NCBI RefSeq assembly: GCF_004209755.1
Contig: NZ_CP035913.1
Span: forward strand, 620,001 to 684,000
Direction: 5' to 3'
Source: Pseudoduganella lutea
Lineage (GTDB): Bacteria; Pseudomonadota; Gammaproteobacteria; Burkholderiales; Burkholderiaceae_D
Length of the DNA stretch: 64,000 nt
The notes beneath the pieces are model-generated. The model was not told the origin of the DNA, made no database searches, and was given only the letters and a program-made list of their open reading frames with translations. The translations under genes were made by a program, and so were the position numbers. Position 1 is the stretch's first letter; each line of letters starts with the position of its first letter. Shown here piece by piece: positions 48,410 to 64,000 of this stretch.

Positions 48410-48437
48410 GCCCTCCGATTGCTGTTGGATTGTCATT

Positions 48438-48446
48438 TGCTATCAT
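48438..48446 (+). promoter_or_regulatory. Extended -10 promoter of the S9 peptidase gene
   Basis: TGCTATCAT with -10 TATCAT at 48441-48446, and a candidate -35 TTGCTG at 48419-48424 sixteen bp earlier. 53 bp before the ATG. Confidence 0.45.
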
Positions 48447-48498
48447 GCGCGCCTTGGCCGGCGCGTGCCGGCCTCCCCTTTTACATCGGAGAAACCGG

Positions 48499-50568
48499 AT
48501 GACCCTACGCCTGCTGGCAACCAGCGCCGCCCTCGCGGCCGTTGCCCTATCGGCTGCGCCCCTTGCGATGGCGGCGCCACGCGGCCTGACCATCGAAGAC
48601 CTCGCGAGCATGGACCGGGTAGGCAGCCCCGTGCTGTCGCCCGACGCCTCGCGCGTCGTCTACACGGTGCGCAGCACCAGCCTGGAAAAGAACCGTGGCA
48701 TCACCCAGCTGTGGATGATCGACCTGCGCGCCGCCAAGCCTGTGCCGCAGCAGCTCACGTCGCATGAATCGAGCAGCTTCGACCCGGAATGGTCGGCCAG
48801 CGGCGATGCCCTGTACTTCCTGTCCAGCCGGTCCGGCTCTGCGCAGGTGTGGCGCCTGCCTGCCGGCGGTGGCGAGGCCGTCAAGGTGACGAACCTGCCG
48901 GTGGATGTCGACAGCTTCCACGTGTCCCCGAAAGGCGACCGCCTCGCGGTGACGATGGCCGTCTTCCGCGACTGCGCCGACCTGGCCTGCACGAAGAAGC
49001 GCAACGACGACCAGGCCGCCAACAAGGCCACCGGCAAGCTGTACGACCAGATGTTCGTGCGCCACTGGGATACGTGGGCGGACGGCAAGCGCAATGTGCT
49101 GCACACCGTGTCACTGGGCGCGGCACCCGCGTCCACCGCAACGAGCCTGTCCGGCACGCTCGATGGCGACATCACCAGCAAGCCGTTCGGCGACCGCGGC
49201 GAATACACGTTCAGCCCGGACGGCCAGCGCATCGTGTTCTCGGTGCGCGTGGCGGGCAAGAGCGAGGCATGGTCGACCAACTTCGACCTGTATGAAGTGC
49301 CGGCCGCGGGCGGCGCCGCACCGCGCAACCTGACGGCCGACAATCCGGCCTGGGACACCAAGCCGCAGTTCTCTCCGGACGGCAAGACACTGGCCTACCT
49401 GGCGATGAAGCGCCCCGGCTTCGAGGCGGACCGCTTCCACATGGTCCTGCAGGACGTTGCGTCCGGCAAGAAACGCGTGCTGGCCGAGAGCTGGGACCGT
49501 TCGATCGCCGACTACCGCTGGCGCCCGGACGGCAAGGCGCTGCTGGCCAATGCCGACGACGTGGGCAACCACCGCCTGTTCTCGCTCGACGCGGCCAGCG
49601 GCAAGGTCAGCGCGCTGACGGACCAGGGCTATGTCGCCGAGTTCGACGCAAAGCGCGATACCGTGGTGATGACGCAGAACAGCCTGCGCGATGGCGCCCA
49701 GCTGTTCAAACTGGCAGGCACGAAGGCCACCCAGCTCACGCACGCCAACCGCGAGCGTCTGGCGGACATCAGGATGGGCGAGTATGAACAGTTCTCGTTC
49801 GCCGGCGCCAACGGCGAAACGGTCCATGGCTACGTGATGAAGCCGTGGAACGCCGAGCCCGGCAAGATGTATCCGGTGGCCTTCCTCGTGCACGGCGGCC
49901 CCCAGGGTAGCTTCGGCAACTCGTGGAGCTATCGCTGGAATCCGCAGGTGTATGCCGGCGCCGGCTATGCCACCGTGTTCATCGACTTCCACGGCTCCAC
50001 CGGCTATGGCCAGGCCTTCACGGATTCGATCAGCGGCGACTGGGGCGGCAAGCCGCTCGAAGACCTGAAAAAAGGCCTCGCCGCCGCGGGCCAGAAGTAT
50101 CCGTGGCTGGACACGTCGAACGCCTGCGCACTGGGCGCCTCGTATGGCGGCTACATGATGAACTGGATCGAAGGTAACTGGAGCGACGGCTTCAAGTGCA
50201 TCGTCAACCACGACGGCGTGTTCGACCAGCGCGGCATGGGCTACTCGACGGAAGAACTGTGGTTTACCGAATGGGAAAACGGCGGCACGCCGTACGCGAA
50301 CCCGGAAGGCTACGAGAAGTTCAACCCCGTGCACCACGTGACGAAGTGGAAAACGCCGATGCTCGTGATCCAGGGCGACCTGGACTTCCGCATCCCGACC
50401 GCCCAGGCGCTGGGCACCTTCACGGCGCTGCAGCGGCAAGGCATCAAATCGAAGCTGCTGGTATTCCCGGACGAGAACCACTGGGTGCTGAAGCCAGCCA
50501 ATTCGATCCAGTGGCATCACACGGTGATCGGCTGGCTCGATGAGCACCTGAAGCAGCAAGCGAAATAA
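48499..50568 (+). CDS. S9-family serine peptidase (prolyl oligopeptidase family), secreted
   Basis: 689-aa peptidase. Signal peptide (MTLRLLATSAALAAVALSAA), then a beta-propeller (about residues 35-400) with repeated S-P-D/S-x-D-G blades (FSPDGQRIVFSVRV, FSPDGKTLAYLAM). The alpha/beta-hydrolase domain has nucleophile Ser in LGASYGGYMMNW (GxSxGG), Asp in IQGDLDFRIPTAQ and His in DENHWVLKP. It resembles dipeptidyl or acylaminoacyl peptidases that degrade peptides in the periplasm. GGAG precedes the ATG. Confidence 0.94.
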   Translation: MTLRLLATSAALAAVALSAAPLAMAAPRGLTIEDLASMDRVGSPVLSPDASRVVYTVRSTSLEKNRGITQLWMIDLRAAKPVPQQLTSHESSSFDPEWSASGDALYFLSSRSGSAQVWRLPAGGGEAVKVTNLPVDVDSFHVSPKGDRLAVTMAVFRDCADLACTKKRNDDQAANKATGKLYDQMFVRHWDTWADGKRNVLHTVSLGAAPASTATSLSGTLDGDITSKPFGDRGEYTFSPDGQRIVFSVRVAGKSEAWSTNFDLYEVPAAGGAAPRNLTADNPAWDTKPQFSPDGKTLAYLAMKRPGFEADRFHMVLQDVASGKKRVLAESWDRSIADYRWRPDGKALLANADDVGNHRLFSLDAASGKVSALTDQGYVAEFDAKRDTVVMTQNSLRDGAQLFKLAGTKATQLTHANRERLADIRMGEYEQFSFAGANGETVHGYVMKPWNAEPGKMYPVAFLVHGGPQGSFGNSWSYRWNPQVYAGAGYATVFIDFHGSTGYGQAFTDSISGDWGGKPLEDLKKGLAAAGQKYPWLDTSNACALGASYGGYMMNWIEGNWSDGFKCIVNHDGVFDQRGMGYSTEELWFTEWENGGTPYANPEGYEKFNPVHHVTKWKTPMLVIQGDLDFRIPTAQALGTFTALQRQGIKSKLLVFPDENHWVLKPANSIQWHHTVIGWLDEHLKQQAK

Positions 50569-50639: not shown

Positions 50640-52244
50640 TTACTGCTGCGCGGTCGCCGGAACGTCCAGCGTGATCGCCTTCAGGCCCAGCACGGCGCTG
50701 CTCTGCTGGCGGATCTGGTTCGCATAGGCGGCGTCGGGATTGAGCTTGCGGCCATACGACGGCACCATTTCCTTCATCTTCGCCTGCCATTCCGGCGTGG
50801 CCAGCTGGCCCTTGAACGACGATTTCTCGAGCACCTTCAGCATGATCGGCGCGGCCGTCGAGGCGCCCGGCGAGGCGCCCAGCAGCGCGCTCATCGTGCC
50901 GTCGGCGGAGCTCACGACCTCCGTGCCGAACTGCAGCAGGCCACCCTTCTTCGGGTCATCCTTGACGATCTGCACGCGCTGGCCGGCGTTGACGAGCGTC
51001 CAGTCTTCCAGTTTCGCTTCCGGCAGGTAGTCGCGCAGCGTGGCCAGGCGGTCTTCGGGCGACTGCATCACCTGCTGCACGAGGTATTTCGTCAGCGGGA
51101 TGTTGTCGTAGCCCGCTTCGAGCATCGGCTTGACGTTGTCGCCACCAATGGAGGCCGGCAGGTCGATCCACGAACCGTTCTTCAGGAACTTCGTCGAGAA
51201 CGTGGCGAACGGGCCGAACAGCAGCGCCTGCTTGCCATCGATGATGCGGGTATCCAGGTGCGGCACCGACATCGGCGGCGAGCCGACGGAAGCCTTGCCA
51301 TACACTTTCGCGTTGTGCTGCTTGATCAGTTCGGGATTGCTCGTGACCAGCCACTGGCCGCCGACGGGCACGCCGCCGAAGCCCTTGGCTTCCGGAATGC
51401 CGCTCTTTTCCAGCAGCGGCAAAGAACCGCCGCCGGCGCCGATGAACACGAACTTCGCGCGCACCGTCTTCATCGAGTTGTCGGCCAGGTTCTTGACGGT
51501 GACGTTCCAGTTGCCATCCGTGCCGCGCGTGATGTCTTCCACCTGGTGGCGCAGCGACAGCGTCATGCCGCCCTTCTCCGTCAGGTGCTTCACCATGCTG
51601 CGCGTCAGCGTGCCGTAGTTGACGTCGGTGCCGATTTCCATCCGCGTGGCCGCCACTTTCTGGTTCTTGTCGCGGCCGTTCATGACCAGCGGAATCCACT
51701 TGCGCAGCTGTTCCTGGTCTTCCGTGTAGATCATGCCCTTGAACAGGTTTTCCTTCTGCAGGGCGGCATAGCGCTTCTGCAGGAAGGCGATGTTGTCATC
51801 GCCCCAGACGAACGACATGTGCGGCACGTTGTTGATGAACGTGCGCGGATCGCCGAGGTAGCCCTTCTGCACCTGGTAGGCCCAGAACTGCTTGGACACT
51901 TCGAACTGTTCGTTGATGTCGACGGCTTTCTTCGTTTCGACGCTGCCGTCCGGCATTTCCGGCGTGTAGTTCAGTTCAGCGAAACCGGAGTGGCCGGTGC
52001 CCGCGTTGTTCATCGCGTCCGAACTTTCGGCCGAGACCGTATCGAGGCGCTCGAACATCTGCATGGTCAGGCCGGGCTGCAGCTCATGGAGCATCGTGCC
52101 CAGGGTGGCGCTCATGACACCGGCGCCGACCAGCACCACGTCGACCGGTTTGTCGGCGGAGGGCGGCGGGGACTTGGTGCAGGAGGAAAGGATCAAACAG
52201 GAGAACAGGACAACGAGCGACTTACCGACAAATGACTTACGCAT
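50640..52244 (-). CDS. mqo: Malate:quinone oxidoreductase with lipoprotein-like leader
   Basis: 534-aa FAD enzyme oxidising malate to oxaloacetate and reducing quinone. [19 protein letters not shown] is the FAD Rossmann motif, and [17 protein letters not shown] and [20 protein letters not shown] are Mqo signatures. Unusually, the N-terminus is [20 protein letters not shown] followed by SC, a lipobox, then a short Lys/Pro/Ser linker, suggesting a lipid-anchored or exported enzyme. The frame is open well upstream, but only this start yields a sensible leader; the ribosome site is weak. Convergent with the S9 peptidase gene. Confidence 0.93.
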
Positions 52245-52728
52245 GATGACATTACCTGAACGATGATCGCGGTGCTGCCACCGCCACCATCCGGTTAAAA
52301 GAACTTCAACGGTTCCTTGCGAAATATTTCCGACAGGCCGGGGAGACCAAACAAAAAAATTCCGTAAGGAGCGTGCAGCCACGGTGAATCGGGGCACACG
52401 ACGCGCAGCGGAAGCAACGTCACGGCGCGACACTGTTGAGTGGATCGATGGACCGTGACAGGAGACTAGCAGCAAACGACGGCATGCCGGTTCCGGCATG
52501 CGGACGGCAAGCTGTGTTCTGTGCGTCTATTGAAGAGACAAGCCCGGAAGGGCCAGACGAATCTTAGGCCCGCGTGGCCGCCCCACCTATTCGGGATTCT
52601 ACTTAGGTCATGTATAAGACCCGCCGGTGCATGAACCGATGCACGCATCGAAATGCACGCGAATATAATGCCGTTCATTCCACTGCAGCGCATGCGGCAA
52701 GGCTCATCCATCGAAGGCGTTACTACCG
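52245..52728. other. 484-bp gap between divergent mqo and the VOC gene
   Basis: Must hold promoters for both genes. A TATAAG about 110 bp before the VOC gene start and AT-rich stretches near 52340-52370 are the only hints. No repeat, RNA gene or convincing ORF was seen. Short open frames here are GC-rich and lack family features. Confidence 0.4.
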
Positions 52729-53112
52729 ATGTTCAAACGAATCCACCACGCAGCCATCATCTGCGCCAACTACGCGCGCTCCAAACGTTTTTACACCGAG
52801 GTACTCGGCCTGCGCATCATCGCGGAAAACTACCGGACGGCGCGGCACTCGTACAAGCTCGACCTGCAACTGGCCGACGGTGCGCAGATCGAGCTGTTCT
52901 CGTTCCCCGACGCACCCGAACGCCCCTCGTATCCCGAGGCACGGGGCCTGCGCCACCTGGCCTTCGCGGTGGACGACATCGATGCCTGCAAGGCCCGCCT
53001 GGAAGAGCAAGGCGTTGCCGTCGAGCCGATACGGATCGACGAGCATACCGGGCGGCGTTTCACGTTCTTTGCCGACCCGGATGGCCTGCCGCTCGAGCTG
53101 TACGAGGATTGA
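52729..53112 (+). CDS. VOC-family protein (YaeR/GloA2-like)
   Basis: 127-aa vicinal oxygen chelate protein. Metal-ligand pattern: His in [12 protein letters not shown], Glu in IELFSFP, His in [12 protein letters not shown] and Glu in LPLELYED. It resembles YaeR, related to glyoxalase I, whose substrate is not settled. It ends 18 bp from the convergent senA; whether it relates to selenium or ergothioneine metabolism is unknown. Confidence 0.86.
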
Positions 53113-53130: not shown

Positions 53131-54332
53131 TTACGCCCACGCGCACGTCCGGAACCCGCAAAAGATATCGTCGCGCTCGGGCATGAAGAAATTGCGGAAC
53201 TTCGCCGAGCCGAAGCGCGACGGCGTGGCGAACGACGCGCCGCGCAGCGCCTGGTGCGTGGCGAACCACGGCTCGGAGTATTCGCGGTAGCGGTCCGCCG
53301 TGAAACCGGGATACGGTTCGAACGGCGAAGCCGTCCACTCCCATAACTGCCCCAGCGGAACGCCGGGTGGCCATGCAATGCCGCATATTCCCACTCCGCT
53401 TCCGTCGGCAGGCGCCGGCCCGCCCACGCGCAGTAGGCCTGCGCTTCGTACAGGCTCACGTGGCGCACCGGCTCATCCGGGTTCAACGTGGCCGGACGGC
53501 CGAAGCGCACGGTGCGCCAGCCGGCGCCGTCGCGTTCCCAGTAGCGCGGCGCGGAACGCTCCTGCCGCATCAGCCACGCGGCCCCGCCGGTGCTCCAGAA
53601 CTGCCGGTTGTCGTAGCCGCCGTCGGCCATGAAGTCCATGTACTGCGCGTTGGTCACGAGGCCCGCATCCATGCGGAACGGCGCCACATACACTGCGTGC
53701 GCGGTCTTTTCGTTGTCGAACACGAAGCCGGCGGTGTCGGCCGCGCTGCCCAGCTGCAGGGTACCGCCAGGGAACAGCAGGTCGCCGTGGCTGGCGGGTG
53801 CGGGTTCGTCCTGCATCAGCTGCGCCGGCGCCGCCAGGCCAAGCGTCTGCAGCGTGTACAGGTAGGCTTCGCCGTGCATGTCCTCGTGGGCGAGCGCCAG
53901 GCGATAGGGATAGAGCGCCTCGTCGGTATTCGCCTCGCGCGACAGCTTGTCGAGCACGCGGTCGAGCACCTCGTGGCAATAGGTCTTCACGCCGCCGGTG
54001 CTCGGCAGGTCGAGCGTCCAGCGGCTGCGGTGCGGCACGTTGGCCGAGTCGAACCAGTCGTCGCCCTTCGTCAGCAAGGAGGCGAATTGCGCATCGGCCG
54101 GATGGCTCGACAGCGCCTCGCGCAGGATGAACCATTCGGCGAACCAGGCCGTATGGCCCAGCTCCCACAACGGCGGGTTGACGATGCGAAGCTGGGGCAC
54201 GTTGCGTGGCACGTCCATGCCGGCGGCGGCGAAGCAATCGAACAGGGCGAGCGTATAATGCCGCGCATCCTGCATGGCCTCGGCCAGTTGCTGCGTGCGC
54301 GCGGTACGGAAGGAGGCGGTGATGGAATTCAT
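53131..54332 (-). pseudogene. senA: Selenoneine synthase SenA (EgtB-like), apparently frameshifted
   Basis: EgtB-like iron enzyme that in SenA joins a selenosugar to hercynine. The first 325 residues read in one frame: [17 protein letters not shown] and [15 protein letters not shown] supply the three-His iron site, and [18 protein letters not shown] starts the last part of the FGE-like domain. After AFRWG (about 53354) the frame fails. The rest ([17 protein letters not shown] to CGFRTCAWA) continues in the next frame to a stop at 53131. Adding one base at the C4 run 53350-53353 would restore about 400 aa (RWGQLWEW). Either a real one-base deletion or a sequencing error. Confidence 0.82.
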
Positions 54333-54348
54333 TGAAGGATTGTAACCA

Positions 54349-55344
54349 ATGGCAGCTTCCGGCAAACGGACGATCTGTATCGTGAGCCCCGGCACGGCGC
54401 GCGACAACAACGGCAACTGGCACACCGCCGACCGCTGGGCGGGCTTCCTGCGCGACGATTACGACGTGGTGGTCCAGGAGCGGTGGTCGGAGCGGTGGCC
54501 CGCGCCGGACTTGCTGATCGTGCTCCATGCACGCCGCTCCGCCAGGTCGTTGGCCGACTTCCGCCTGCACTGCGACGACCGTCCCGCCATGCTGGTGCTG
54601 ACCGGGACGGACGTGTACCACGACATCCATCACGACGCCGAAGCGCAATGCGCGATCCGGCTGGCCGACGCGCTCGTGGTGCTGCAACCGGCCGCAATCG
54701 ACGAGCTGCCCGACACCGTGCGGGCGGACACCCATGTGATCTACCAGTCCGCCGACGCGCTGCCAGCGCTGCCGAGGATTCCCGGCCGCAAGGACATCAC
54801 GATGGTCGGCCACCTGCGTGCCGTGAAAGACCCGGCCACGTTCATGCGTGCCGCCGCGCTGGTGACGGCGCCCGGCGTCTTCCTGCAGCAGATCGGCGCG
54901 GCGCTCGACCCGGACCTCGAGCGGCTGGCCGAACGCACGGGCGACACGGTGGCGCATTACGCATGGCTGGGCGGCACGCCGCGCGAGTTCGCCCGCGATG
55001 CCATCCGCCGCAGCCACGCGCTGGCCATCTGCTCGACGATGGAGGGCGGCGCCAACGTGATCGTCGAGGCCATCACCAGTGGCGTGCCTGTGCTGGCCAG
55101 CGACATCAGCGGCAACCGTGGGATGCTCGGCAACGATTACGCGGGCTTCTTCCCCGTCGGCGACGCCCCCGCCCTCGCCCGCCTGATCGACCGCAGCGTG
55201 CAGGACGAGGCGTTCATCGCCACCCTGCGCGCCCAGTGCGCGGCCCGCGCCCCGCTGTTCGCGCCGGGGGCGGAACGGGCAGCATTGCTGCGGCTGGTGG
55301 ATAATCTGCTTCAACCGACACCTTCAATTGGCAAAAGAACATGA
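54349..55344 (+). CDS. senB: Selenosugar synthase SenB (TIGR04348-type glycosyltransferase)
   Basis: 331-aa GT4-like glycosyltransferase. [20 protein letters not shown] is the N-terminal donor/acceptor loop typical of this family, [13 protein letters not shown] follows, and the C-terminal EX7E-like region is [20 protein letters not shown]. SenB makes a selenium-carbon bond from UDP-sugar and selenophosphate. It starts 17 bases from the divergent senA ATG and overlaps selD by 4 bp (ATGA), so senB and selD are one unit. AAGGA is nine bases upstream. Confidence 0.9.
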
Positions 55345-56390
55345 CTACTGAACCGATCAAACTCACCTCGTTTTCCCACGGCGGCGGCTGCGGCTGCAAG
55401 ATCGCGCCCGGCGTGCTGTCCGAGATCCTCAAGAACTCCAGCGGCTTTCCCGTGCCGAAGGAACTGCTGGTGGGCATCGAGACGGCCGACGACGCGGCCG
55501 TGTACAAGCTCAACGACGAACAGGCGCTGATCGCCACCACCGATTTCTTCATGCCGATCGTCGACGACCCGTTCGACTTCGGCCGCATCGCGGCCACCAA
55601 CGCGATCTCCGACGTGTATGCCATGGGCGGCACGCCGATCATGGCGCTGGCGCTCGTGGGCATGCCGATCAACAAGCTGCCGGTCGAAACGATCGGCAAG
55701 ATCATCAAGGGCGGCGAGTCGGTCTGCGCCGAAGCGGGCATCCCGATCGCCGGCGGCCACACGATCGATTCCGTCGAGCCGATCTACGGCCTGGTGGTGC
55801 TGGGCCTCGTGCACCCGTCGAAGATCAAGCGCAACGCCGATGCGAAAGCGGGCGACGTGCTCGTGCTGGGCAAGCCGCTGGGCGTGGGCGTGCTGTCGGC
55901 CGCATTGAAGAAGAACGTGCTGGGCGAAGAAGGCTACGCGGCGATGATCGCCAACACCACGAAGCTGAACAAGCCGGGCAAGGCGCTGTCCGAACTGCCG
56001 GGCGTGCATGCACTGACGGACGTCACCGGCTTCGGCCTGCTGGGCCACCTGCTGGAACTGGCGCGCGGCGCGCAGCTGACCGCGAAGCTGACGATGTCGC
56101 AGATCCCGCTTCTGCCAGGCGTCGAGCAGCTGGCCCACGACGGCTACTTCACCGGTGCCTCGGGCCGTAACTGGGAGGGCTACGGCAAGGATGTGACCCT
56201 GTCGCCGAACGTCACGCCGGCCCAGCATACGCTGCTGACCGACCCGCAAACGTCGGGCGGCCTGCTCGTGTCGTGCGACCCTTCCGCGGTCGATGACGTG
56301 CTGGCGATCTTCCGCGCCGGCGGCTTCGAAGCCGCCGCCGTCATCGGCGAAATGGCCGCCGGCGACGCCCGCGTGCAAGTCGCCGCCTGA
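55341..56390 (+). CDS. selD: Selenide, water dikinase (SelD; SenC in the selenoneine pathway)
   Basis: 349-aa enzyme making selenophosphate from selenide and ATP. The N-terminal GGGCGCK loop carries the catalytic Cys (residue 17, then 19) and Lys. ATTDFFMPIVDDPFDFGRIA and the metal Asp sites follow, then GGHTIDSVEPIYGLVVLG and TDPQTSGGLLVSC. A true SelD rather than a Cys-less paralogue. Coupled to senB by a 4-bp overlap, so its product probably feeds selenosugar synthesis; it could also supply Sec-tRNA or selenouridine if selAB or selU exist elsewhere. Confidence 0.94.
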   Translation: MTTEPIKLTSFSHGGGCGCKIAPGVLSEILKNSSGFPVPKELLVGIETADDAAVYKLNDEQALIATTDFFMPIVDDPFDFGRIAATNAISDVYAMGGTPIMALALVGMPINKLPVETIGKIIKGGESVCAEAGIPIAGGHTIDSVEPIYGLVVLGLVHPSKIKRNADAKAGDVLVLGKPLGVGVLSAALKKNVLGEEGYAAMIANTTKLNKPGKALSELPGVHALTDVTGFGLLGHLLELARGAQLTAKLTMSQIPLLPGVEQLAHDGYFTGASGRNWEGYGKDVTLSPNVTPAQHTLLTDPQTSGGLLVSCDPSAVDDVLAIFRAGGFEAAAVIGEMAAGDARVQVAA

Positions 56391-56410
56391 GAACACGGCA
56401 ACGTATGCCT

Positions 56411-56463
56411 GGTGTCCGACATTATTTTCTGGGCGATTCTTCCAGAAAATGGTGTCGGACACC
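56411..56463. repeat. Extragenic palindrome 1 after selD, GGTGTCCGACA variant
   Basis: GGTGTCCGACATTATTTTCT pairs with AGAAAATGGTGTCGGACACC apart from two mismatches. 20 bp after the selD stop; first half of a doublet. Confidence 0.87.
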
Positions 56464-56501
56464 GGTTCTCCCACGATCTTGCCGACCATCTGCGTGAAAC
56501 C

Positions 56502-56551
56502 GGTGTCGCACACTTTTTCCGGATGAACCGCCCGGAAAAATGTCCGACACC
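56502..56551. repeat. Extragenic palindrome 2 after selD, GGTGTCGCACA variant
   Basis: GGTGTCGCACACTTTTTCCG pairs with CGGAAAAATGTCCGACACC with a few mismatches. A 38-bp spacer bounded by ACCGGTT and AAACCGG separates it from copy 1. Confidence 0.85.
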
Positions 56552-56604
56552 AGATCCTCCATGCTTTCCGGCGGTGCCGGTACCACGTTTGCGGGCGAAT
56601 TGTC

Positions 56605-56634
56605 TTGACAATAGCAAACAGGTTCTCTTACATT
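56605..56634 (+). promoter_or_regulatory. Consensus-like promoter for the leuA leader
   Basis: TTGACA (56605-56610), an 18-bp spacer and TACATT (56629-56634). Transcription would start near 56641, that is, at or next to the ATG of the Leu-rich leader ORF. The leuA ATG lies about 380 bp further on. Confidence 0.65.
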
Positions 56635-56640
56635 GATGCC

Positions 56641-56724
56641 ATGTTCACGCATCCGCAACTATCCGCTTTCCTGCTATCGCTTGCCAGCCTATCGCTGGCA
56701 ACGCCCCTGCTAGCACGCGCCTGA
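56641..56724 (+). CDS. Putative leucine leader peptide (27 aa)
   Basis: ATG at 56641, TGA at 56722-56724. Eight of 27 residues are Leu (QLSAFLLSLASLSLATPLLA region), and four of the eight use CTA (codons 7, 12, 17, 24), a codon rare in this GC-rich genome; codons 11-12 and 23-24 are Leu pairs. E. coli leuL also relies on CTA codons to sense charged leucyl-tRNA. Position between a strong promoter and leuA fits ribosome-mediated attenuation. If transcription starts at 56641 the leader would be leaderless. Not a matched family; inference from composition and place. Confidence 0.6.
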   Translation: MFTHPQLSAFLLSLASLSLATPLLARA

Positions 56725-56824
56725 TTCGTTTCACCCCTGTGCGCGCTGCACACCCGCCGTACCTCCAGCTGGCCACAAGCCACACCCGTTTCGAAGCCGG
56801 AACACAGTCAGGAAAGATGCACCC

Positions 56825-56917
56825 ATGCCCGCCATCCATTGCCCTACCGTCGCACTCATCGCCCGCGCGCAGCCGCTGCCGATACTGCTATCGCTACCGA
56901 CCGGTTGCCTGGTCTAG
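56825..56917 (+). CDS. Possible second branched-chain leader ORF (30 aa)
   Basis: ATG at 56825, TAG at 56915-56917. Eleven of 30 residues are Leu, Ile or Val, concentrated in PLPILLSLPTGCLV, including ATA (Ile) and two CTA (Leu) codons. AGGA lies about 11 bases upstream. Its last codons form the 5' arm of the hairpin 56903-56941, so a ribosome stalled on the Leu/Ile codons would stand just before that stem. Weaker case than the first leader. Confidence 0.35.
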   Translation: MPAIHCPTVALIARAQPLPILLSLPTGCLV

Positions 56918-56941
56918 CGCCCCGTGGCCCACCAGGCAGCC
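56903..56941 (+). promoter_or_regulatory. Hairpin overlapping the second leader, possible attenuator stem
   Basis: GGTTGCCTGGT (56903-56913) pairs with ACCAGGCAGCC (56931-56941), 10 Watson-Crick pairs and one G-T, loop 17 nt containing the leader 2 stop codon. No T-run follows, so it is either an antiterminator, a pause or a translational control element. Confidence 0.45.
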
Positions 56942-57019
56942 CTCCGCCACATGCATGCGACCAAGGAACGCTGACGACAGCGGTCCGCCCGACAAAATTC
57001 GAGAACCCAGGAGTACACC

Positions 57020-58717
57020 ATGATGTTGCAGAACCCCGCCGCCAAATACCGCGCCTTCCCGCCCGTCCAGCTGGCCGACCGCACGTGGCCGAACAAGACG
57101 ATCGCCACGCCGCCGATCTGGATGAGCACCGACCTGCGCGACGGTAACCAGGCGCTGATCGAGCCGATGAGCGTGGAAAAGAAGCTGAAGTTCTTCGACC
57201 TGCTGATCAAGACGGGCCTGAAGGAAATCGAAGTGGGCTTCCCTTCGGCATCGCAGACGGACTTCGACTTCGTGCGCAAGCTGATCGACGAGAACCGTAT
57301 CCCGGACGACGTGACCATCATCGTGCTGACCCAGTCGCGCGACGAACTGATCCGCCGCACCGTGCAGGCGGCGGCCGGCGCGAAGAACGCCATCGTCCAC
57401 CTGTACAACTCGGTGGCGCCGGTGTTCCGCAAGGTGGTGTTCAACATGTCGCGCGAAGAAATCGTGAACATCGCCACCACGGGTACCACGCTGGTGAAGG
57501 AACTGCTGGCCAATCATCCGGAAACCAACTGGACCTTTGAATACACGCCGGAATCGTTCTCGACGACGGAACTGGATTTCAGCAAGCAGATCGTCGACGC
57601 GGTGACCGCCATCTGGCAGCCCACGCCGGAAAAGAAGATGATCGTCAACCTGCCGACGACGGTCGAATGCAGCATGCCGAACGTGTATGCCGACCAGATC
57701 GAATGGATGTGCCGTAACATCGAGCGCCGCGACTCGGTCATCATCAGCGTCCACCCGCACAACGACCGCGGCACGGCCGTGGCTTCCGCCGAACTGGCCG
57801 TGCTGGCCGGCGCCGAGCGCGTCGAGGGCTGCCTGTTCGGCAATGGCGAACGCACCGGCAACGTCGACCTGGTCACCCTGGCATTGAACCTGTACACCCA
57901 GGGCGTGCATCCGGGCCTGGACTTCTCGGACATCGATTCCGTGCGCAAGATCGTCGAGGAATGCAACCAGCTGCCGGTGCACCCGCGCCACCCGTACGTG
58001 GGCGACCTGGTGTTCACCGCCTTCTCCGGCTCGCACCAGGACGCGATCAAGAAGGGCTTTGCAAAACAGCAGCCGGGCGCGGAGTGGGAAATCCCCTACC
58101 TGCCGATCGACCCGCAGGACCTGGGCCGCAGCTACGACGCGGTGATCCGCGTGAACAGCCAGTCCGGCAAGGGCGGCATGAGCTACCTGCTGGAACAGGA
58201 TTATGGCCTGGTGCTGCCGCGCCGCCTGCAGATCGAGTTCTCGCGCGCCGTGCAGGCCGTGGCCGACCAGACCGGCCTGGAAATCACGTCCGAAGGCATC
58301 CACGAGATCTTCGAACGCGAATACTTCGCGCAAACGTCGCCCTATGCCTACGTGTCGCACAAGATGGTCGAGGACAGCAGCGCGGATGAATCCGTGCAGA
58401 TCGACATCGGCCTGCTGCACCGCGGTGCCTCGATGGCCCTGCAAGGCGGCGGCAACGGCCCGATCGACGCGTTCGTCGACGCGCTGGGCCTGGACATCAA
58501 GCTGATGGACTACCACGAACACGCGATCGGCCACGGCGCCAACGCCAAGGCGGCCTGCTACGTCGAACTGCGCCTCGACAACGGTCCGACCCTGTTCGGC
58601 GCCGGCATCGACAGCAATATCGTGACGGCATCGTTCAAGGCCGTGCTGTCGGCCGTGAACCGGCAGTTGCGGCAGAAGGAAGCGGCACCGGCCCAGGCGA
58701 GCGACGCCGCGGCTTGA
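57020..58717 (+). CDS. leuA: 2-isopropylmalate synthase, LeuA2-type long form
   Basis: 565-aa enzyme condensing acetyl-CoA with 2-oxoisovalerate, the committed step of leucine synthesis. Metal site and catalytic Arg in [28 protein letters not shown], and [20 protein letters not shown] with the His-x-His metal pair. The C-terminal third is the regulatory domain that binds leucine (feedback). AGGAG sits seven bases before the ATG. It is isolated from leuBCD here and preceded by a 300-bp leader region. Confidence 0.95.
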
Positions 58718-58731
58718 TATAACGTGTGCCT

Positions 58732-58774
58732 GGTGTCTGACACTATTTTTCGCAGAAAAATAGTGTCAGACACC
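58732..58774. repeat. Extragenic palindrome 1 after leuA, perfect 20-bp stem
   Basis: GGTGTCTGACACTATTTTTC (58732-58751) and its exact complement (58755-58774), loop GCA. The 3' arm is followed by CCGGTTTTT, so it may terminate leuA. Confidence 0.92.
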
Positions 58775-58811
58775 GGTTTTTCCATGCAAAAACGCTGCGC
58801 TGGGGACAACC

Positions 58812-58862
58812 GGTGTCAGACACCTTTTTCGGAAAAATCATCCGAAAAAAGTGTCTGACACC
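58812..58862. repeat. Extragenic palindrome 2 after leuA, GGTGTCAGACACC variant
   Basis: GGTGTCAGACACCTTTTTCG pairs with CGAAAAAAGTGTCTGACACC with a single mismatch. The spacer to copy 1 (37 bp) is bounded by GGTTTTTCC and GGGGACAACC, which can also pair. Lies between convergent leuA and egtB. Confidence 0.9.
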
Positions 58863-58919
58863 AGCCGCTACTGGCGGGGACAGACCCCTGCGACGCAGCC
58901 GTTCTCGAAGCATCGTGCT

Positions 58920-60173
58920 TCACCTCGCCAGCCGTATCCCCGCAAACTGCCACCGCGCCCCCGCCGGGAAGAAATTCCGGTAGCTGGCCCGCGCATGCCC
59001 CGCCGGCGTCGCGCACGACGATCCCCGCAGCACATACTGGTTCACCATGAACTTGCCGTTGTATTCGCCGATCGCGCCCGCGGCAGGCCGGAAGCCGGGG
59101 TAAGGCGCGTAGCTGCTGCTGGTCCACTGCCAGCAGTGATCGAACATCTCCCGCAACGCGCCTGAACCAGCGGCACCGCCCGGATGCGGCAGCGCCGGCG
59201 GCGCGCCCGGTACGACACCGCTTTCACGCGCCGCATGCTCCCATTCCCCCTCCGTCGGCAGCCGTGCGCCGGCCCAGTGCGCGTAGGCGTCGGCCTCGAA
59301 CAGGGAAATGTGCGTCAGCGGCCGTCCGGGGTCCAGCGGCTGCAGGCCCATCAGCGTGAACTCGCACCAGTTGCCGTCGTCATCCTGCCGCCAGTACAGC
59401 GGCCTGTCGAAGCCCTGGGCGCAGATCCAGTCCCACCCCTCCGCCAGCCACAGTCCCGCGTTGCGGTAGCCGCCAGCCTCGATGAAGGCGAGGAATTCGC
59501 CGTTCGTCACCAGCCGCGATGCGAGCTGGAACGGCTCCACGAACTGGCGATGGCGCGGCAGTTCGTTGTCGAAGCAGAAGCCGTCGCCGTCGTAACCCAC
59601 CTCCATTAGGCCGCCCTCGAACGGCAGCCAGGACAGTGCCCCGGCGGAGGCCGCGCGCGGCAACGCTTCGGCCAGGTATTCGGGGCACAGGCCGTTCTGC
59701 GCGAGCAGGTGCTTCACGTCCGTCAGCATCAGCTCCTGGTGCTGCTGTTCGTGCTGCAGGCCCAGGGTGAGCAAGGCCGCGAGGCGGGAACGGGCATCGG
59801 CATCGAGCCCGCTGCCGACCAGCGCGGCGATGCGCCCGTCCACATTGGCCCGGTAGGCGCGCACCTGCGCCATGGCCGGGCGCGTCAGCAGGCCGCGCTG
59901 GGGCCGCGGGTGCTTCTGGCCCACGCCGTTGTAGTAGGAATTGAACAGCACGCGGAACGCCGGGTGGAACGGCGCGAAACCAGGTTCCATCGCTTCCAGG
60001 ATGAAGGTCTCGAAGAACCACGTGGTGTGCGCGAGGTGCCACTTGATCGGGCTGGCGTCGGGCATCGACTGGGCCCCGCAGTCCTCGTCGGACAGGGGCG
60101 CGGCCAGCGCCAGCGAATGCTCGCGCACGGCGCGGTAGCGGGCCGTCCAGACGGCGGGATCGTTCAGTTGCAT
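58920..60173 (-). CDS. egtB: Ergothioneine synthase-type sulfoxide synthase EgtB
   Basis: 417-aa non-heme iron enzyme joining hercynine to a thiol (gamma-glutamylcysteine or cysteine) with oxygen. The DinB-like N domain has iron His in IKWHLAHTTWFFETFIL and LGLQHEQQHQELMLTDVKH. The FGE-like C domain runs from HRQFVEPFQLASRLVTNGEF to YRNFFPAGARWQFAGIRLAR. Translation starts at 60173, 8 bp after the egtD stop; the egtD TAG overlaps the AGGAGGAG ribosome site. Intact, in contrast to the neighbouring senA. Confidence 0.93.
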   Translation of the reverse strand: MQLNDPAVWTARYRAVREHSLALAAPLSDEDCGAQSMPDASPIKWHLAHTTWFFETFILEAMEPGFAPFHPAFRVLFNSYYNGVGQKHPRPQRGLLTRPAMAQVRAYRANVDGRIAALVGSGLDADARSRLAALLTLGLQHEQQHQELMLTDVKHLLAQNGLCPEYLAEALPRAASAGALSWLPFEGGLMEVGYDGDGFCFDNELPRHRQFVEPFQLASRLVTNGEFLAFIEAGGYRNAGLWLAEGWDWICAQGFDRPLYWRQDDDGNWCEFTLMGLQPLDPGRPLTHISLFEADAYAHWAGARLPTEGEWEHAARESGVVPGAPPALPHPGGAAGSGALREMFDHCWQWTSSSYAPYPGFRPAAGAIGEYNGKFMVNQYVLRGSSCATPAGHARASYRNFFPAGARWQFAGIRLAR

Positions 60174-60181
60174 GGCTCCTC

Positions 60182-61183
60182 CTACGCCGTGGCCGCGTGC
60201 GCATGCATCACCGCGAACCAGCCCGCATCGTCGGTCCACACGGCATCGGCCGCGAAGCCGGCCTGCGCCAGCAACTGCGCGAAACTCTCGGGCGTGTACT
60301 TGTAGCTGTCCTCGGTGTGGATGCGCTCGCCGCGCGCGAAGCGGCGCTCGCCACCCGGCCAGCGCACCGTGAGCGCCGTGCGCGCTTCCAGGTGCATCTC
60401 GATGCGGCTTTCCTCGGCGTTGAAGAAGGCCACGTGGCGCCACTGGCGTACGTCGAAATCGGCGCCGGTCAGGTGGTTCACGTGGCGCAGCATGTTCAGG
60501 TTGAACGCGGCCGTCACGCCGATCGCATCGTCATAGGCCGCATCCAGCACGGCCGCATCCTTGATCAGGTCCACGCCGATCAGCAGGGCACCGTCGCTGG
60601 ACGTGTTCTCGCGGACGCGGCGCAGGAAGGCAATGGCCTCGTGCGGCGCGAAATTGCCGATCGACGAGCCGGGGTAGAAGAACGTGCGGCGCGCCGCGTT
60701 GACGGCCGGCGGCAGCGTGAACGGGCCTGACAGGTCGAGGGCCAGCGCCGTCATGGCGATCGATGGAAAGCGTTGCTGCAGGCGGCCGACCGCCTCGTTG
60801 AGGAAGTCGCGCGAGATGTCGATCGGCACATACTGTTGCGGCTGCAACAAGGGGAACAGGCTGGCGGCCTTGGCGCAGTTGCCGGCGCCCAGGTCGATCA
60901 GCGTGCCCCCCGTGCCCACGCGGCGCGCGATGTCGGCACCGTGCGCCGCGAAAATCGCCGCTTCGGTCCGTGTGGGATAATACTCGGGCAATTCGCAGAT
61001 GGCTTCGAACAGGCGCGATCCCAGGCTGTCGTACAGGTATTTCGGCGAAGTGCGTGCCTGCGGCGCCAGCAGCCCCGCCTGGATTTCGGCAACCGTGGCA
61101 CGGTCGCCTTGCGGCCCCTCGGCAATGTCGGACGAGTGGGTCGGCAACGCCCTCAGGGCGGTGGCGGTTCTGGTCATGGGCAT
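60182..61183 (-). CDS. egtD: L-histidine N-alpha-methyltransferase EgtD
   Basis: 333-aa SAM enzyme making hercynine (N-alpha-trimethylhistidine), the shared precursor of ergothioneine and selenoneine. TLIDLGAGNCAKAASLF is the SAM loop; RRTFFYPGSSIGNFAPHEAI, TAAFNLNMLRHVNHLTGADF and EDSYKYTPESFAQLLA are EgtD signatures. The start at 61183 has AGGA nine bases upstream. First gene of egtDB and divergent from the ABC importer genes. Confidence 0.94.
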   Translation of the reverse strand: MPMTRTATALRALPTHSSDIAEGPQGDRATVAEIQAGLLAPQARTSPKYLYDSLGSRLFEAICELPEYYPTRTEAAIFAAHGADIARRVGTGGTLIDLGAGNCAKAASLFPLLQPQQYVPIDISRDFLNEAVGRLQQRFPSIAMTALALDLSGPFTLPPAVNAARRTFFYPGSSIGNFAPHEAIAFLRRVRENTSSDGALLIGVDLIKDAAVLDAAYDDAIGVTAAFNLNMLRHVNHLTGADFDVRQWRHVAFFNAEESRIEMHLEARTALTVRWPGGERRFARGERIHTEDSYKYTPESFAQLLAQAGFAADAVWTDDAGWFAVMHAHAATA

Positions 61184-61268
61184 GGCGCTCTTCCTGTTCT
61201 TTTCGGTTAGTCTCACGGGCTGGCGGCACGGCCTGTCGTAACGGACAGTCGGGCGGCAAAGGCAATTT

Positions 61269-61277
61269 TGCTATGAT
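61269..61277 (+). promoter_or_regulatory. Extended -10 promoter of the PhnD-like importer operon
   Basis: TGCTATGAT with -10 TATGAT at 61272-61277, in the 173-bp gap divergent from egtD. About 80 bp before the first gene. Confidence 0.45.
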
Positions 61278-61356
61278 ACTCAATTACAAAATGGCAGAGC
61301 GTCCCTCACGGAACTCCCTGGGCGCCTGCATTCAACAACAATTTTATTTCCTGCTC

Positions 61357-62217
61357 ATGAAACCAACCTTCAAACGTGCGCTCGGCGCCCTCGCCCTCGG
61401 TACCCTGCTTTCCCTGTCCGCGCATGCCCAGCAAGTGCTGCGCGTGTCGGCCATTCCCGATGAGGCGCCGACCGAACTGCAGCGCAAGTTCAAGCCGCTG
61501 GGTGAATACCTGTCGAAGAAAACGGGCCTGAAGGTCGAGTTCACACCGGTGACCGACTACGCGGCGTCCGTCGAAGGCCTGGTCAACAACAAGCTGGACA
61601 TGGTGTGGTTCGGCGGCTTCACGTTCGTGCAGGCCAAGGATCGCAGCAAGGGCCAGGTCGTGCCGCTGGTGCAGCGTGTGGAAGACGAGAAATTCCGCTC
61701 CGTGTTCATCACCACGTCGCCATCGATCACGAAACTGGCTGACCTGAAAGGCAAGACGCTGTCGTTCGGTTCCGAGTCGTCCACGTCCGGTCACCTGATG
61801 CCGCGCTCGTTCCTGCTGGCCGCCAAGATCGACCCGGACAGCGACCTGAAGCGCATCGCCTTCTCCGGCGCGCACGACGCCACGGTGGCCGCAGTCAGCG
61901 GCGGCAAGGTCGATGCCGGCGCGCTGAACATCTCGGTGTGGGAAAAGCTCGTGGGCGAGAAAAAGGTCGACACGTCGAAAGTGCGCGTGTTCTACACCAC
62001 GCCCACCTACTACGACTACAACTGGACGGTGCGCGCCGACATGCCGGCCGACCTGAAGAAGAAGATCACCGATGCCTTCCTGGCCCTCGATCCGTCCACG
62101 CCCGAAGGCAAGGAAATCCTCGACCTGCAGCGTGCCACGAAGTTCATCCCGACCAAGGCGGAAAACTACGTGAACATCGAAGCCGCGGCAAAGAACGCCG
62201 GCCTGCTGAAGAAGTAA
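61357..62217 (+). CDS. PhnD-like periplasmic binding protein, putative selenium oxyanion importer
   Basis: 286-aa periplasmic receptor of the phosphate/phosphite/phosphonate (PhnD) superfamily. Signal peptide MKPTFKRALGALALGTLLSL. Mature parts include LRVSAIPDEAPTELQRKFKP, LDMVWFGGFTFVQAKDRSKG and GSESSTSGHLMPRSFLLAAK, where PhnD proteins bind the oxyanion. Databases carry a PhnD subfamily named putative selenate transporter; I recall it as being associated with selenium-using genomes. Beside senB, selD and egtDB that reading is attractive, but phosphonate or phosphite uptake is not excluded. No phn catabolic genes are visible. Confidence 0.82.
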   Translation: MKPTFKRALGALALGTLLSLSAHAQQVLRVSAIPDEAPTELQRKFKPLGEYLSKKTGLKVEFTPVTDYAASVEGLVNNKLDMVWFGGFTFVQAKDRSKGQVVPLVQRVEDEKFRSVFITTSPSITKLADLKGKTLSFGSESSTSGHLMPRSFLLAAKIDPDSDLKRIAFSGAHDATVAAVSGGKVDAGALNISVWEKLVGEKKVDTSKVRVFYTTPTYYDYNWTVRADMPADLKKKITDAFLALDPSTPEGKEILDLQRATKFIPTKAENYVNIEAAAKNAGLLKK

Positions 62218-62220
62218 GCC

Positions 62221-63084
62221 GTGGAAGGCAGCGACGTGACGCGTGACCGCGACAGCGTGACCTCCGATACGTTCATCTATCGGCTGGAAGAAATGTCCGC
62301 CCGCCATGCGGGCGGCACGCGGGCATATGCGCTGCAAGGCATCACGCTGGCCGTGCGGCCTGGCGAACAGCTGGCGCTGATCGGCCCTTCCGGGGCCGGC
62401 AAGACCACGCTGCTGGCCACGCTGTCGGTGGGCCACGCGCCGGACGGCGGCAGGTTCGAGGCGTTCGGCCTTGATCCCTGGCGCCTGTCCGACCGCGAGC
62501 GCCACAAGCTGCGCGCGCGCCTGTTCCTGGCCCCGCAAACGCCGCCATTGCCGCCGCGTCAGCGCGTGGTCACCGCCGTTCTCGCGGCGCGGTTGCCGCA
62601 GTGGAGCCTGTGGCAGGCGCTGGCATCGCTGGTCAGGCCCGCCGAGCCGGAAGCGGCCTGGCGCGCGCTGTCCCGCTTCAACCTGGGCGACAAGCTGTAT
62701 GCGCGCGTGGACCGGCTGTCCGGCGGCGAGCGCCAGCGCTGCGGCCTGGCAAGGCTGCTGCTGTCGTCGGCGCAGGCCCTGCTGGTGGACGAGCCGCTGT
62801 CCGCGCTCGATCCCGCACTGTCGCAACTCACATTGACCACGCTGCAGCAGGAAGCGGCGGCGCGCAACGCCGCCCTCGTGTGCAGCCTGCACCAGGTGGA
62901 TCTCGCCCTGGCGCACTTTCCCCGCATCGTGGCGCTGAAGGAAGGCCGCATCGTGTTCGACCTGCCGCGCGACCAGGTCACGCAGGCCATGATCGACGAC
63001 TTGTACCTGAACGAACAGCCGCCCGCGAACACGCCGCATCCGGTCGACCTGCCGGCCAAGCTGGCCGTCGGCGCCTGCCTCTGA
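62221..63084 (+). CDS. PhnC-like ABC transporter ATP-binding protein
   Basis: 287-aa ATPase for the importer. Walker A GPSGAGKTTLL, signature LSGGERQRCGLARLL, Walker B ALLVDEPLSALDP, and CSLHQVDLALAHF as H-loop. Begins 3 bp after the binding protein gene stop with GTG; an alternative GTG at 62236 has a better ribosome site (GGAAGG), and an ATG at 62293 is also possible. The core similarity starts only after the last of these. Confidence 0.88.
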   Translation: MEGSDVTRDRDSVTSDTFIYRLEEMSARHAGGTRAYALQGITLAVRPGEQLALIGPSGAGKTTLLATLSVGHAPDGGRFEAFGLDPWRLSDRERHKLRARLFLAPQTPPLPPRQRVVTAVLAARLPQWSLWQALASLVRPAEPEAAWRALSRFNLGDKLYARVDRLSGGERQRCGLARLLLSSAQALLVDEPLSALDPALSQLTLTTLQQEAAARNAALVCSLHQVDLALAHFPRIVALKEGRIVFDLPRDQVTQAMIDDLYLNEQPPANTPHPVDLPAKLAVGACL

Positions 63085-63104
63085 TCCACCGCCACCGCAG
63101 AACG

Positions 63105-63950
63105 ATGCAAAGCATTCCCGCCGCACCCTATGCCGAGCGCCATCCCGATCCCGCGTGGCGCGGTCGCGTCACGTACACGGTCGTCGCGCTGCTGATCCTG
63201 TGGCCGATGCTGGTCGCCAGCGAATTCAAGCCATCGATCCTGTTCGATGGCGACAGCCTGGCCGCCACGCTGCGCTTCCTCGCCGATTTCCTGCCGCCGG
63301 CGCACTCGCCCGAGTTCCTGCTGCTGCTGCTGCGCGAAACGTGGCAGACCGTCGCCATCGCTACGGCCGGCCTCACGCTGGCGCTGCTGGGCGCCATCCC
63401 CGCCACGCTGGTCGTAACCGAGCGCCTGTCGATCTCGCGGCTTGGCACCGGCCGCATGGCATGGGCTTCGCGCGCCGTGCGGCAGGCCATGCGCTGGCTG
63501 CTGGTATTGCTGCGCAGCGTGCCCGAACTCGTGTGGGCGCTGCTGTTCGTGCGCATCATCGGCCTCGGCCCCACCGCCGGCGTGCTGGCCATCGCCCTCA
63601 CCTATTGCGGCATGCTGGGCAAGGTGTATGCCGAGATCCTCGAATCGTCCGAGCGCCATGCCAGCGACACGCTGCTGGCCAACGGCGGCTCGCGCCTGCA
63701 GGCGCTGCTCTATGCCGCGCTGCCGGAATCGGCCTCCGAACTGGTGTCGTACACCGTGTACCGCTGGGAATGCGCGATCCGCGGTTCCGTCGTGATGGGC
63801 TTCGTCGGCGCCGGCGGCCTGGGCCAGCGGATGGATGAATCGATGAAGATGCTGGCCGGCGGCGAGGTATCGGCGATGCTGCTGGTGTTCGTGCTGCTCG
63901 TCGCCTGCGCCGACGTCGTGTCCAAAGCCTTGCGAAAGCGCCTCGGATGA
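63105..63950 (+). CDS. PhnE-like ABC transporter permease
   Basis: 281-aa permease with about six transmembrane helices (VTYTVVALLILWPMLVASEF first). The EAA loop is ILESSERHASDTLLANGGSR. Ends in an ATGA overlap with the next frame, which starts another protein. Confidence 0.87.
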   Translation: MQSIPAAPYAERHPDPAWRGRVTYTVVALLILWPMLVASEFKPSILFDGDSLAATLRFLADFLPPAHSPEFLLLLLRETWQTVAIATAGLTLALLGAIPATLVVTERLSISRLGTGRMAWASRAVRQAMRWLLVLLRSVPELVWALLFVRIIGLGPTAGVLAIALTYCGMLGKVYAEILESSERHASDTLLANGGSRLQALLYAALPESASELVSYTVYRWECAIRGSVVMGFVGAGGLGQRMDESMKMLAGGEVSAMLLVFVLLVACADVVSKALRKRLG

Positions 63951-64000
63951 CCGCGCCCCGGATGCCTTCGCCGCCGCCACGCCGCTGGTCGGGCGCCGTC
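63947..64000 (+). CDS. Next importer gene, truncated by the window end
   Basis: ATG overlapping the previous stop by 4 bp (ATGA), open to the window edge: MTAPRMPSPPPRRWSGAV. Only 18 codons are visible. By position it is probably a second PhnE-like permease, as such transporters often have two; sequence beyond the edge decides. Confidence 0.55.
   Translation, partial: MTAPRMPSPPPRRWSGAV

Follow-up and report, generated by a model that had tools for sequence, protein, structure and literature searches.

The window considered here is a 64,000-nucleotide stretch of Pseudoduganella lutea DNA (contig NZ_CP035913.1, forward-strand positions 620,001 to 684,000), taken from a genome that consists of a single contig of 7.5 Mb and is listed as 100% complete (G000 in our set). 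We studied window positions 53131 to 64000, where a sequence-only reading had placed genes for the synthesis of selenoneine and ergothioneine beside an ABC importer resembling PhnDCE. That placement is confirmed, and NCBIfam profile scores, judged against curated cut-offs, bore out the identities of senA (in two pieces), senB, selD, egtD, egtB, and the PhnDCE-like importer. The gene order is senA, senB-selD, leuA, egtB, and egtD, with phnD-phnC-phnE1 running divergently from egtD and phnE2 crossing the window end.

On the selenium side, senB (selenosugar synthase; 54349..55344, plus strand) scored 378.4 bits for TIGR04348 (cut-off, 300), and selD (also called senC; 55341..56390, plus strand), whose start overlaps the senB stop, scored 438.6 bits for TIGR00476 (cut-off, 125); both genes are over their cut-offs and adjacent, as in a sen cluster. 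In an alignment of SenB with 8k5u, read by eye, the catalytic lysine and N20/T23 appear to be kept and the EGGAHV motif reads EGGANV, the critical residues being those named in the available part of PMC10891094. On the sulfur side, egtB (ergothioneine sulfoxide synthase; 58920..60173, minus strand) scored 555.8 bits for TIGR03440 (cut-off, 360), and egtD (the histidine methyltransferase that makes hercynine; 60182..61183, minus strand) scored 389.3 bits for TIGR03438 (cut-off, 290.9), with both starts set by eye; both exceed their cut-offs, so that these two steps of the ergothioneine pathway are counted as present. Between them and selD lies leuA (2-isopropylmalate synthase by NCBIfam; 57020..58717, plus strand), which sits mid-block in several relatives as well.

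The importer begins with a phnD-like gene (61357..62217, plus strand) for a substrate-binding protein (SBP) that has a signal-peptide-like start and scored 406.6 bits for TIGR04553 (cut-off, 250) versus 168.5 bits, under the cut-off of 261.1, for the PhnD model TIGR03431. It is followed on the same strand by a phnC-like ABC ATPase gene (62221..63084; best model TIGR02315, 174.1 bits, under the cut-off of 266.1), a phnE1-like permease gene (63105..63950; TIGR01097, 192.2 bits, under the cut-off of 216.7), and a phnE2-like permease gene (63947..64000, continuing to window-equivalent position 64741; L069:13947-14741), which scored 239.2 bits for TIGR01097, over the same cut-off. The start of phnE2 overlaps the end of phnE1, and the importer operon extends past the window.

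In other bacteria, according to PMC9814287, PMC10891094, and PMC10702425, hercynine comes from EgtD, selenophosphate from SelD, and a selenosugar from SenB; SenA couples this selenosugar to hercynine to give selenoneine, and EgtB starts ergothioneine synthesis. The block selD is the sole SelD match of the window genome at an E value of 1e-30, and SelU (C1:6470389) and SelA (C1:7385096) are both encoded far off; with one SelD match only, the routes to selenocysteine, selenouridine, and selenoneine would all need to draw on the block selD. The block stands above chance because its family scores lie far over the cut-offs and the arrangement was found again in relatives, a recurrence that the sequence-only reading had proposed as a check. 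That reading had also held that rare co-occurrence among relatives would refute it, and this was not seen, as 21 of 59 importers there lie within 20 kb of senB. Taken together, the block is very probably a histidine-betaine locus that handles both selenium and sulfur and has a selenium supply of its own.

To place the importer, we searched 116 genomes of the window's taxonomic family for seven protein families. TIGR04553 was found over the cut-off in 59 genomes and SenA in 58, and there were matches to SenB in 51, SelD in 101, SelA in 38, EgtD in 93 (92 over the cut-off), and SelU in 103 (100 over the cut-off). The P values that follow ignore shared descent, except in the genus-level count. 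SelD accompanied the importer in 57 of 59 genomes, versus 44 of the 57 others (P = 0.002), and the two importer genomes without a SelD match have a listed completeness of 80% (G009) and 68% (G087); the corresponding figures for EgtD were 56 of 59 and 37 of 57 (P = 5e-5).

The importer was also found close to these genes. It lay within 2 kb of selD in 18 of the 59 genomes and within 2 kb of egtD in 31 (271 to 472 bp between matches), never both; within 20 kb, selD was found for 43 and either selD or egtD for 51. Adding senB to the list leaves the count at 51 of 59, compared with 0 of 86 for other PhnD-like proteins among the matches listed, these controls being the below-cut-off PhnD-like rows of the same search apart from fragments (G102, G071 twice, G046, and the second piece of G106). 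The unit phnD-phnC-phnE1-phnE2 recurs in both settings wherever the stretch is long enough, with the permeases followed by selD in L104 and L110. One explanation would be chance combined with leftover synteny of one lineage, as the relatives compared all belong to one family and the functionally unrelated leuA travels with the block; yet the importer occupies two different selenium-linked positions, the control SBPs listed show neither, and the association repeats in a second phylum (see below), and we consider this explanation very improbable.

The two positions correspond to different gene contents. SenB was present in 26 of the 31 genomes with an egtD-adjacent importer versus 4 of 28 others (P = 7e-8), a contrast that persists when counted per genus (10 of 12 versus 2 of 9; P = 0.009), and 15 of the 18 selD-adjacent importers were in SenB-less genomes. 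The divergent arrangement with egtD had raised the idea that the cargo of the importer is not selenium but a histidine betaine (hercynine, ergothioneine, or selenoneine), and the egtD-adjacent position of the importer in 31 of 59 importer genomes would agree with this. The idea is scarcely credible, however, as 18 importers adjoin selD instead, three genomes (G063, G077, and G104) have the importer without an EgtD match, and the SBP keeps the direct ligands for a small oxyanion described in the available part of PMC10284923. A hercynine or ergothioneine importer was accordingly set aside on the strength of the oxyanion pocket and the EgtD-less importer genomes.

One genome offers a single case of the reverse situation. 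In G102 (1.7 Mb in 130 contigs, listed as 99% complete), neither SelD nor SelU was matched at an E value of 1e-30, and the importer is decayed: the SBP scores a sub-threshold 238.3 bits, phnD has a frame change near its end, tblastn gives one phnC piece and one phnE piece, and pocket positions 60, 65, 124, and 174 read, by eye, L, I, L, and D. Decay of the importer where SelD and SelU are missing is what a selenium function predicts.

Among solved structures, the nearest neighbors of the window SBP are the PhnD1 proteins of Synechococcus (7s6g) and Prochlorococcus (5lq5), with PtxB and PhnD further away; both PhnD1 proteins exceed the TIGR04553 cut-off, at 337.6 and 300.8 bits, respectively. 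Accordingly placed in the same family, the cyanobacterial importer was sought at an E value of 1e-60, together with SelU at 1e-30, in 242 cyanobacterial genomes (the class of G116, Synechococcus WH7803, locus L126). Importer and SelU occurred together in 102 genomes, the importer alone in 0, SelU alone in 35, and neither in 105, counts that carry no correction for descent and no second transporter as a control. Thus, the importers are nested within the 137 SelU carriers; 100 of the 102 exceed the TIGR04553 cut-off, and SelD was found in 98 of the 102 genomes. Synechococcus WH7803 (G116) is among the genomes with matches to the importer, SelU, and SelD. In G232 and G290, no more than 5 kb separates the importer from selU and a selD fusion, in the order oxidoreductase-SelD fusion, selU, an opposite-strand gene, phnD, phnC, and a long open reading frame (ORF), the order in G290 resting on ORF coordinates; the long ORF is, by length and by eye, a putative fused double permease.

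A smaller hand-picked set of 34 genomes, drawn from 80 fetched loci that carry cyanobacterial titles except L139 (Pelagibacteraceae), gave SelU in 32 (29 over the cut-off). The exceptions, G118 and G136, carry AG- names, which we take to denote single-cell genomes. No sen, egt, or other selenium gene was detected in the flanks of the 80 loci with the window proteins at an E value of 1e-8, a search whose queries did not include SelU, whose flanks were often truncated, and which faces a distant fusion form of SelD in cyanobacteria.

The binding pocket connects the window SBP to these proteins at the level of single residues. In the available part of PMC10284923, the phosphate ligands of PhnD1 are Y44, S124, T125, S126, H156, D203, and Y204, with a water held via T65 and S123 and with D11 and N174 behind Y204. 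All seven direct ligands of 7s6g, as well as T65, S123, D11, and N174, are identical in the window SBP. Across 89 TIGR04553 sequences sampled from those found (51 from the window's family and 38 cyanobacterial), W60, G63, T65, S123, N174, and D203 are each conserved in 88 or 89 sequences; at these positions, the residues of the three PtxB chains are Y, P, S, A, S/A, and Q. A FastTree phylogeny of 110 rows, which omitted two very long rows (L254 and L251), split the 89 members from 21 others with support of 1.0 and resolved a cyanobacterial subclade (38 sequences; support, 1.0) and a subclade of the window's family (51 sequences; support, 0.93). With all 112 rows in IQ-TREE, row L254 (length, 9.14) fell among the members, and the TIGR04553 group needed two changes. 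The sequence-only reading had named grouping with phosphonate or phosphite receptors as evidence against it; the window SBP branches separately from PtxB and from the other PhnD-like proteins in the sample, but it does group with the phosphite binder PhnD1. Its suggestion of a selenate subfamily fared similarly: the SBP belongs to TIGR04553, but "selenate" is only the label of that family, and characterized members, in the available parts of the sources, bind phosphite and phosphate in vitro.

These binding data speak for a phosphorus importer (of phosphite, phosphate, or phosphonate) that merely neighbors the block. The fold family is that of PhnD and PtxB, both Synechococcus and Prochlorococcus PhnD1 bind phosphite and phosphate, and the available part of PMC10284923 gives dissociation constants for Synechococcus PhnD1 of 0.67 to 2.8 uM for phosphite and 7.4 to 88 uM for phosphate, the latter being, in the authors' wording, at least an order of magnitude weaker. 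The same source reports that phosphite did not support growth and that expression was not linked to phosphate, calls phosphite binding fortuitous, and proposes a phosphate transporter; its abstract terms the function of PhnDCE paradoxical, and "selen" does not occur in the main text available. Likewise, PMC5700983 calls the in vivo function of picocyanobacterial PhnDCE unknown, and "selenite" and "selenate" are absent from its available part. A phosphorus substrate also fails to explain the co-occurrence with SelU and SelD or the decay where selenium genes are missing, and the pocket is unlike that of PtxB at positions 60, 63, 65, 123, 174, and 203. We therefore regard a phosphorus importer as improbable.

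A selenium importer, in contrast, would account for what is puzzling about PhnD1CE, namely, phosphite binding together with the lack of phosphate regulation and of growth on phosphite. If the site were built to fit an XO3 anion of pyramidal form, for instance selenite, a preference for phosphite might be expected. By the same chemical reasoning, selenite would be preferred over selenate, as the related pocket favors three-oxygen phosphite over tetrahedral phosphate.

Several observations nevertheless weigh against a selenium role. In the sources available in part, the characterized TIGR04553 members bind phosphite, phosphate, and in part methylphosphonate, and PMC10284923 cites a case in which a Phn system supported growth on phosphate after deletion of the canonical transporters. 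Among the cyanobacteria, 35 SelU carriers have no importer, and proximity is rare, as just 2 of the 102 importers, the same ones for both genes, are within 10 kb of SelU or SelD. In the window's family, 44 SelD-bearing genomes are without the importer, and 8 of 59 importers are near none of selD, egtD, and senB (G001, G009, G032, G063, G081, G085, G104, and G115), most of them in drafts with these genes on other contigs; around the importers of G032 and G104, tblastn with the window proteins found no selenium gene. The lowest-scoring importer over the cut-off (L258 in G001; 294.9 bits) sits immediately downstream of a gene for a heavy-metal P-type ATPase; its double permease is fused, and the importer may have another substrate. 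Five genomes have an egtD-adjacent importer without SenB (G038, G040, G065, G076, and G087). Finally, SenB presence failed as a predictor of the importer (30 of 59 genomes versus 21 of 57; P = 0.14), with 21 SenB carriers lacking the importer and 29 of the 59 importer carriers lacking SenB. Of the claim in the sequence-only reading that this importer supplies the selenium, the link to selenium survives, and the position of the importer tracks the product, but specificity for selenoneine is not supported.

On balance, genome context and pocket strongly support a putative selenium role of the TIGR04553 importer, and we propose that in the window's family and in cyanobacteria it imports selenium oxyanions, selenite being likelier than selenate. 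As a broader reading, TIGR04553 PhnDCE systems, PhnD1CE among them, are probably the missing dedicated selenium importers of bacteria, which would recognize pyramidal selenite and bind phosphite only by mimicry, and would have been re-sited beside egtD in the window's family for selenoneine. In such a scheme, the importer would take up an inorganic selenium oxyanion, which would be reduced to selenide and then activated by SelD; SenB would build the selenosugar, SenA would transfer the selenium to hercynine, and hercynine from EgtD would feed EgtB and SenA alike. The divergent placement of importer and egtD might let selenium uptake and hercynine supply switch on together. A general selenium importer would then be sited by local use, beside selD or selU mostly where SenB is absent and beside egtD mostly where it is present.

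The sequence-only reading had further seen in the block a near-complete route from selenium uptake to selenoneine, and this did not hold as stated: senA is broken in this assembly, and the route is incomplete as sequenced. The selenoneine synthase gene lies in two frames on the minus strand, an N-terminal part of 327 codons (53352..54332; positions 1 to 310 of 382 in model NF041186; 397.8 bits; start codon read from the sequence) and a C-terminal part of 72 codons (53131..53349; model positions 314 to 382; 121.7 bits), with the switch near 53,350 in a G-rich stretch. Neither piece reaches the whole-protein cut-off of 420, so the gene is not counted as an intact senA. Among the 20 fetched loci that hold both senA parts, 19 are open, and only the window copy is out of frame. 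Sequencing errors are common in G-rich stretches, and we judge such an error to be likelier than a true lesion; the break reflects either a sequencing error or a very recent lesion, and the selenoneine output of the strain is uncertain. Were senA truly inactivated, the strain would end at the selenosugar or send selenium only to selenocysteine and selenouridine. This is possible though on the whole doubtful: the two frames occur in a single-contig genome listed as complete, SelA and SelU are encoded elsewhere in it, and relatives such as G098 have SenB without an over-cut-off SenA, yet the summed score of about 519 bits, inside the range of 490 to 539 bits for over-cut-off SenB-adjacent SenA, would make any lesion recent, and the stretch that holds the break is of an error-prone kind.

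Other irregularities were seen in these gene families. In L100 (G106, of the same genus), phnD itself is in two frames, so frame breaks in the block are not unique to the window genome; in L097 (G094), senA is open but has an in-frame stretch that exceeds its counterpart in relatives by about 30 codons, and it gave no over-cut-off SenA row; and in L094 (G087, an incomplete genome), egtB appears as three tblastn pieces. SenB and SelD occur without a neighboring SenA in L099 (G098), L084 (G056), and L092 (G079), with a SenA-family match elsewhere in G056 and G079 and none over the cut-off in G098, and the selenosugar could be the end product at these loci. Over-cut-off matches to the SenA model (448 to 501 bits) without a SenB match were found in G005, G048, G072, G092, G109, G037, G027, G009, G081, and G100; these are possibly EgtB-like enzymes with another partner.

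The divergent region between egtD and phnD (61184..61356) contains a motif at 61266-61285 that scored at least 15 of 20 in 26 of 33 egtD-linked loci and in 0 of 20 selD-linked loci, with 14 for the window copy, the consensus having been drawn from the scored loci themselves and the best of 500 shuffles of one locus scoring 14. The 33 loci include G046 and G071, whose importer pieces are cut by contig ends and which fall outside the 59. The motif is presumably an extended -10 promoter box, and a regulatory operator was set aside because the conserved motif looks like such a box and not like a repressor site. After phnE2, beyond the window, comes a gene for a LolD-like ATPase (window-equivalent 64790-65470; L069:14790-15470), and a second phnC-like match of this kind (LolD/FtsE-like, with no permease of its own) follows phnE2 in 20 of the 33 egtD-linked loci L070-L102, several others being cut short, and in 0 of 20 selD-linked loci. 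At the other flank, a VOC-family metalloprotein gene (SMU1112c/YaeR; 52729..53112, plus strand; NF050075, 202.9 bits) is probably outside the pathway, and a transposase-like ORF, judged by its sequence, lies several genes from the block at 47057-48223, beyond ORFs 48430-50568 and 50640-52499.

The selenium idea for TIGR04553 is not new, being already contained in the NCBIfam family name. Among the open-licence papers listed, none connects PhnD-type transporters with selenium uptake or reports this block, and according to PMC9312934, PMC11097638, and PMC13188914, a specific or high-affinity transporter for selenium is not known. The locus offers a concrete candidate for such an importer, with two genomic positions that match two uses of selenium. 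Specialists may be surprised to find marine cyanobacterial PhnD1 in a selenium-linked family and nested within the SelU carriers of the genomes searched. The puzzle of picocyanobacterial PhnDCE is thereby reduced to a simple binding question, for which proteins have already been purified and crystallized, and if our reading is correct, what was taken for phosphorus uptake in abundant marine phototrophs is uptake of selenium.

Compared with known systems, the block represents the sen cluster in a variant form that includes a putative selenium supply of its own. In Variovorax paradoxus (PMC9814287, PMC10702425, and PMC10891094, in their available parts), that cluster likewise unites the SenA, SenB, and SelD/SenC families; the window block adds egtB, egtD, leuA, and the importer, an importer not being mentioned for V. 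paradoxus in those parts, and its senA is frame broken. The adjacency of egtB and egtD known from ergothioneine loci is kept in the window, where the pair is divergent to a selenium-linked importer. The NCBIfam name of TIGR04553, "putative selenate ABC transporter SBP," is a prediction that the window SBP matches well (406.6 bits versus a cut-off of 250), although our data suggest selenite at least as much as selenate and add the egtD-linked placement. With the phosphite receptor PtxB, the window SBP has in common the fold and the STS, H, and Y anion ligands, but PtxB has Y60, P63, S65, A123, S/A174, and Q203 in place of W, G, T, S, N, and D; the window SBP neither shares this pocket nor groups with the PtxB and PhnD phosphorus receptors, which are on a separate branch of the tree. 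A further counterpart is PhnD1CE, which is described as occurring throughout Prochlorococcus and in many marine Synechococcus: its SBPs (7s6g and 5lq5) belong to the same family as the window SBP and have the same anion ligands at about 45% identity, and yet, unlike the selenium-linked importer of the window, this system is described as a phosphite/phosphate transporter.

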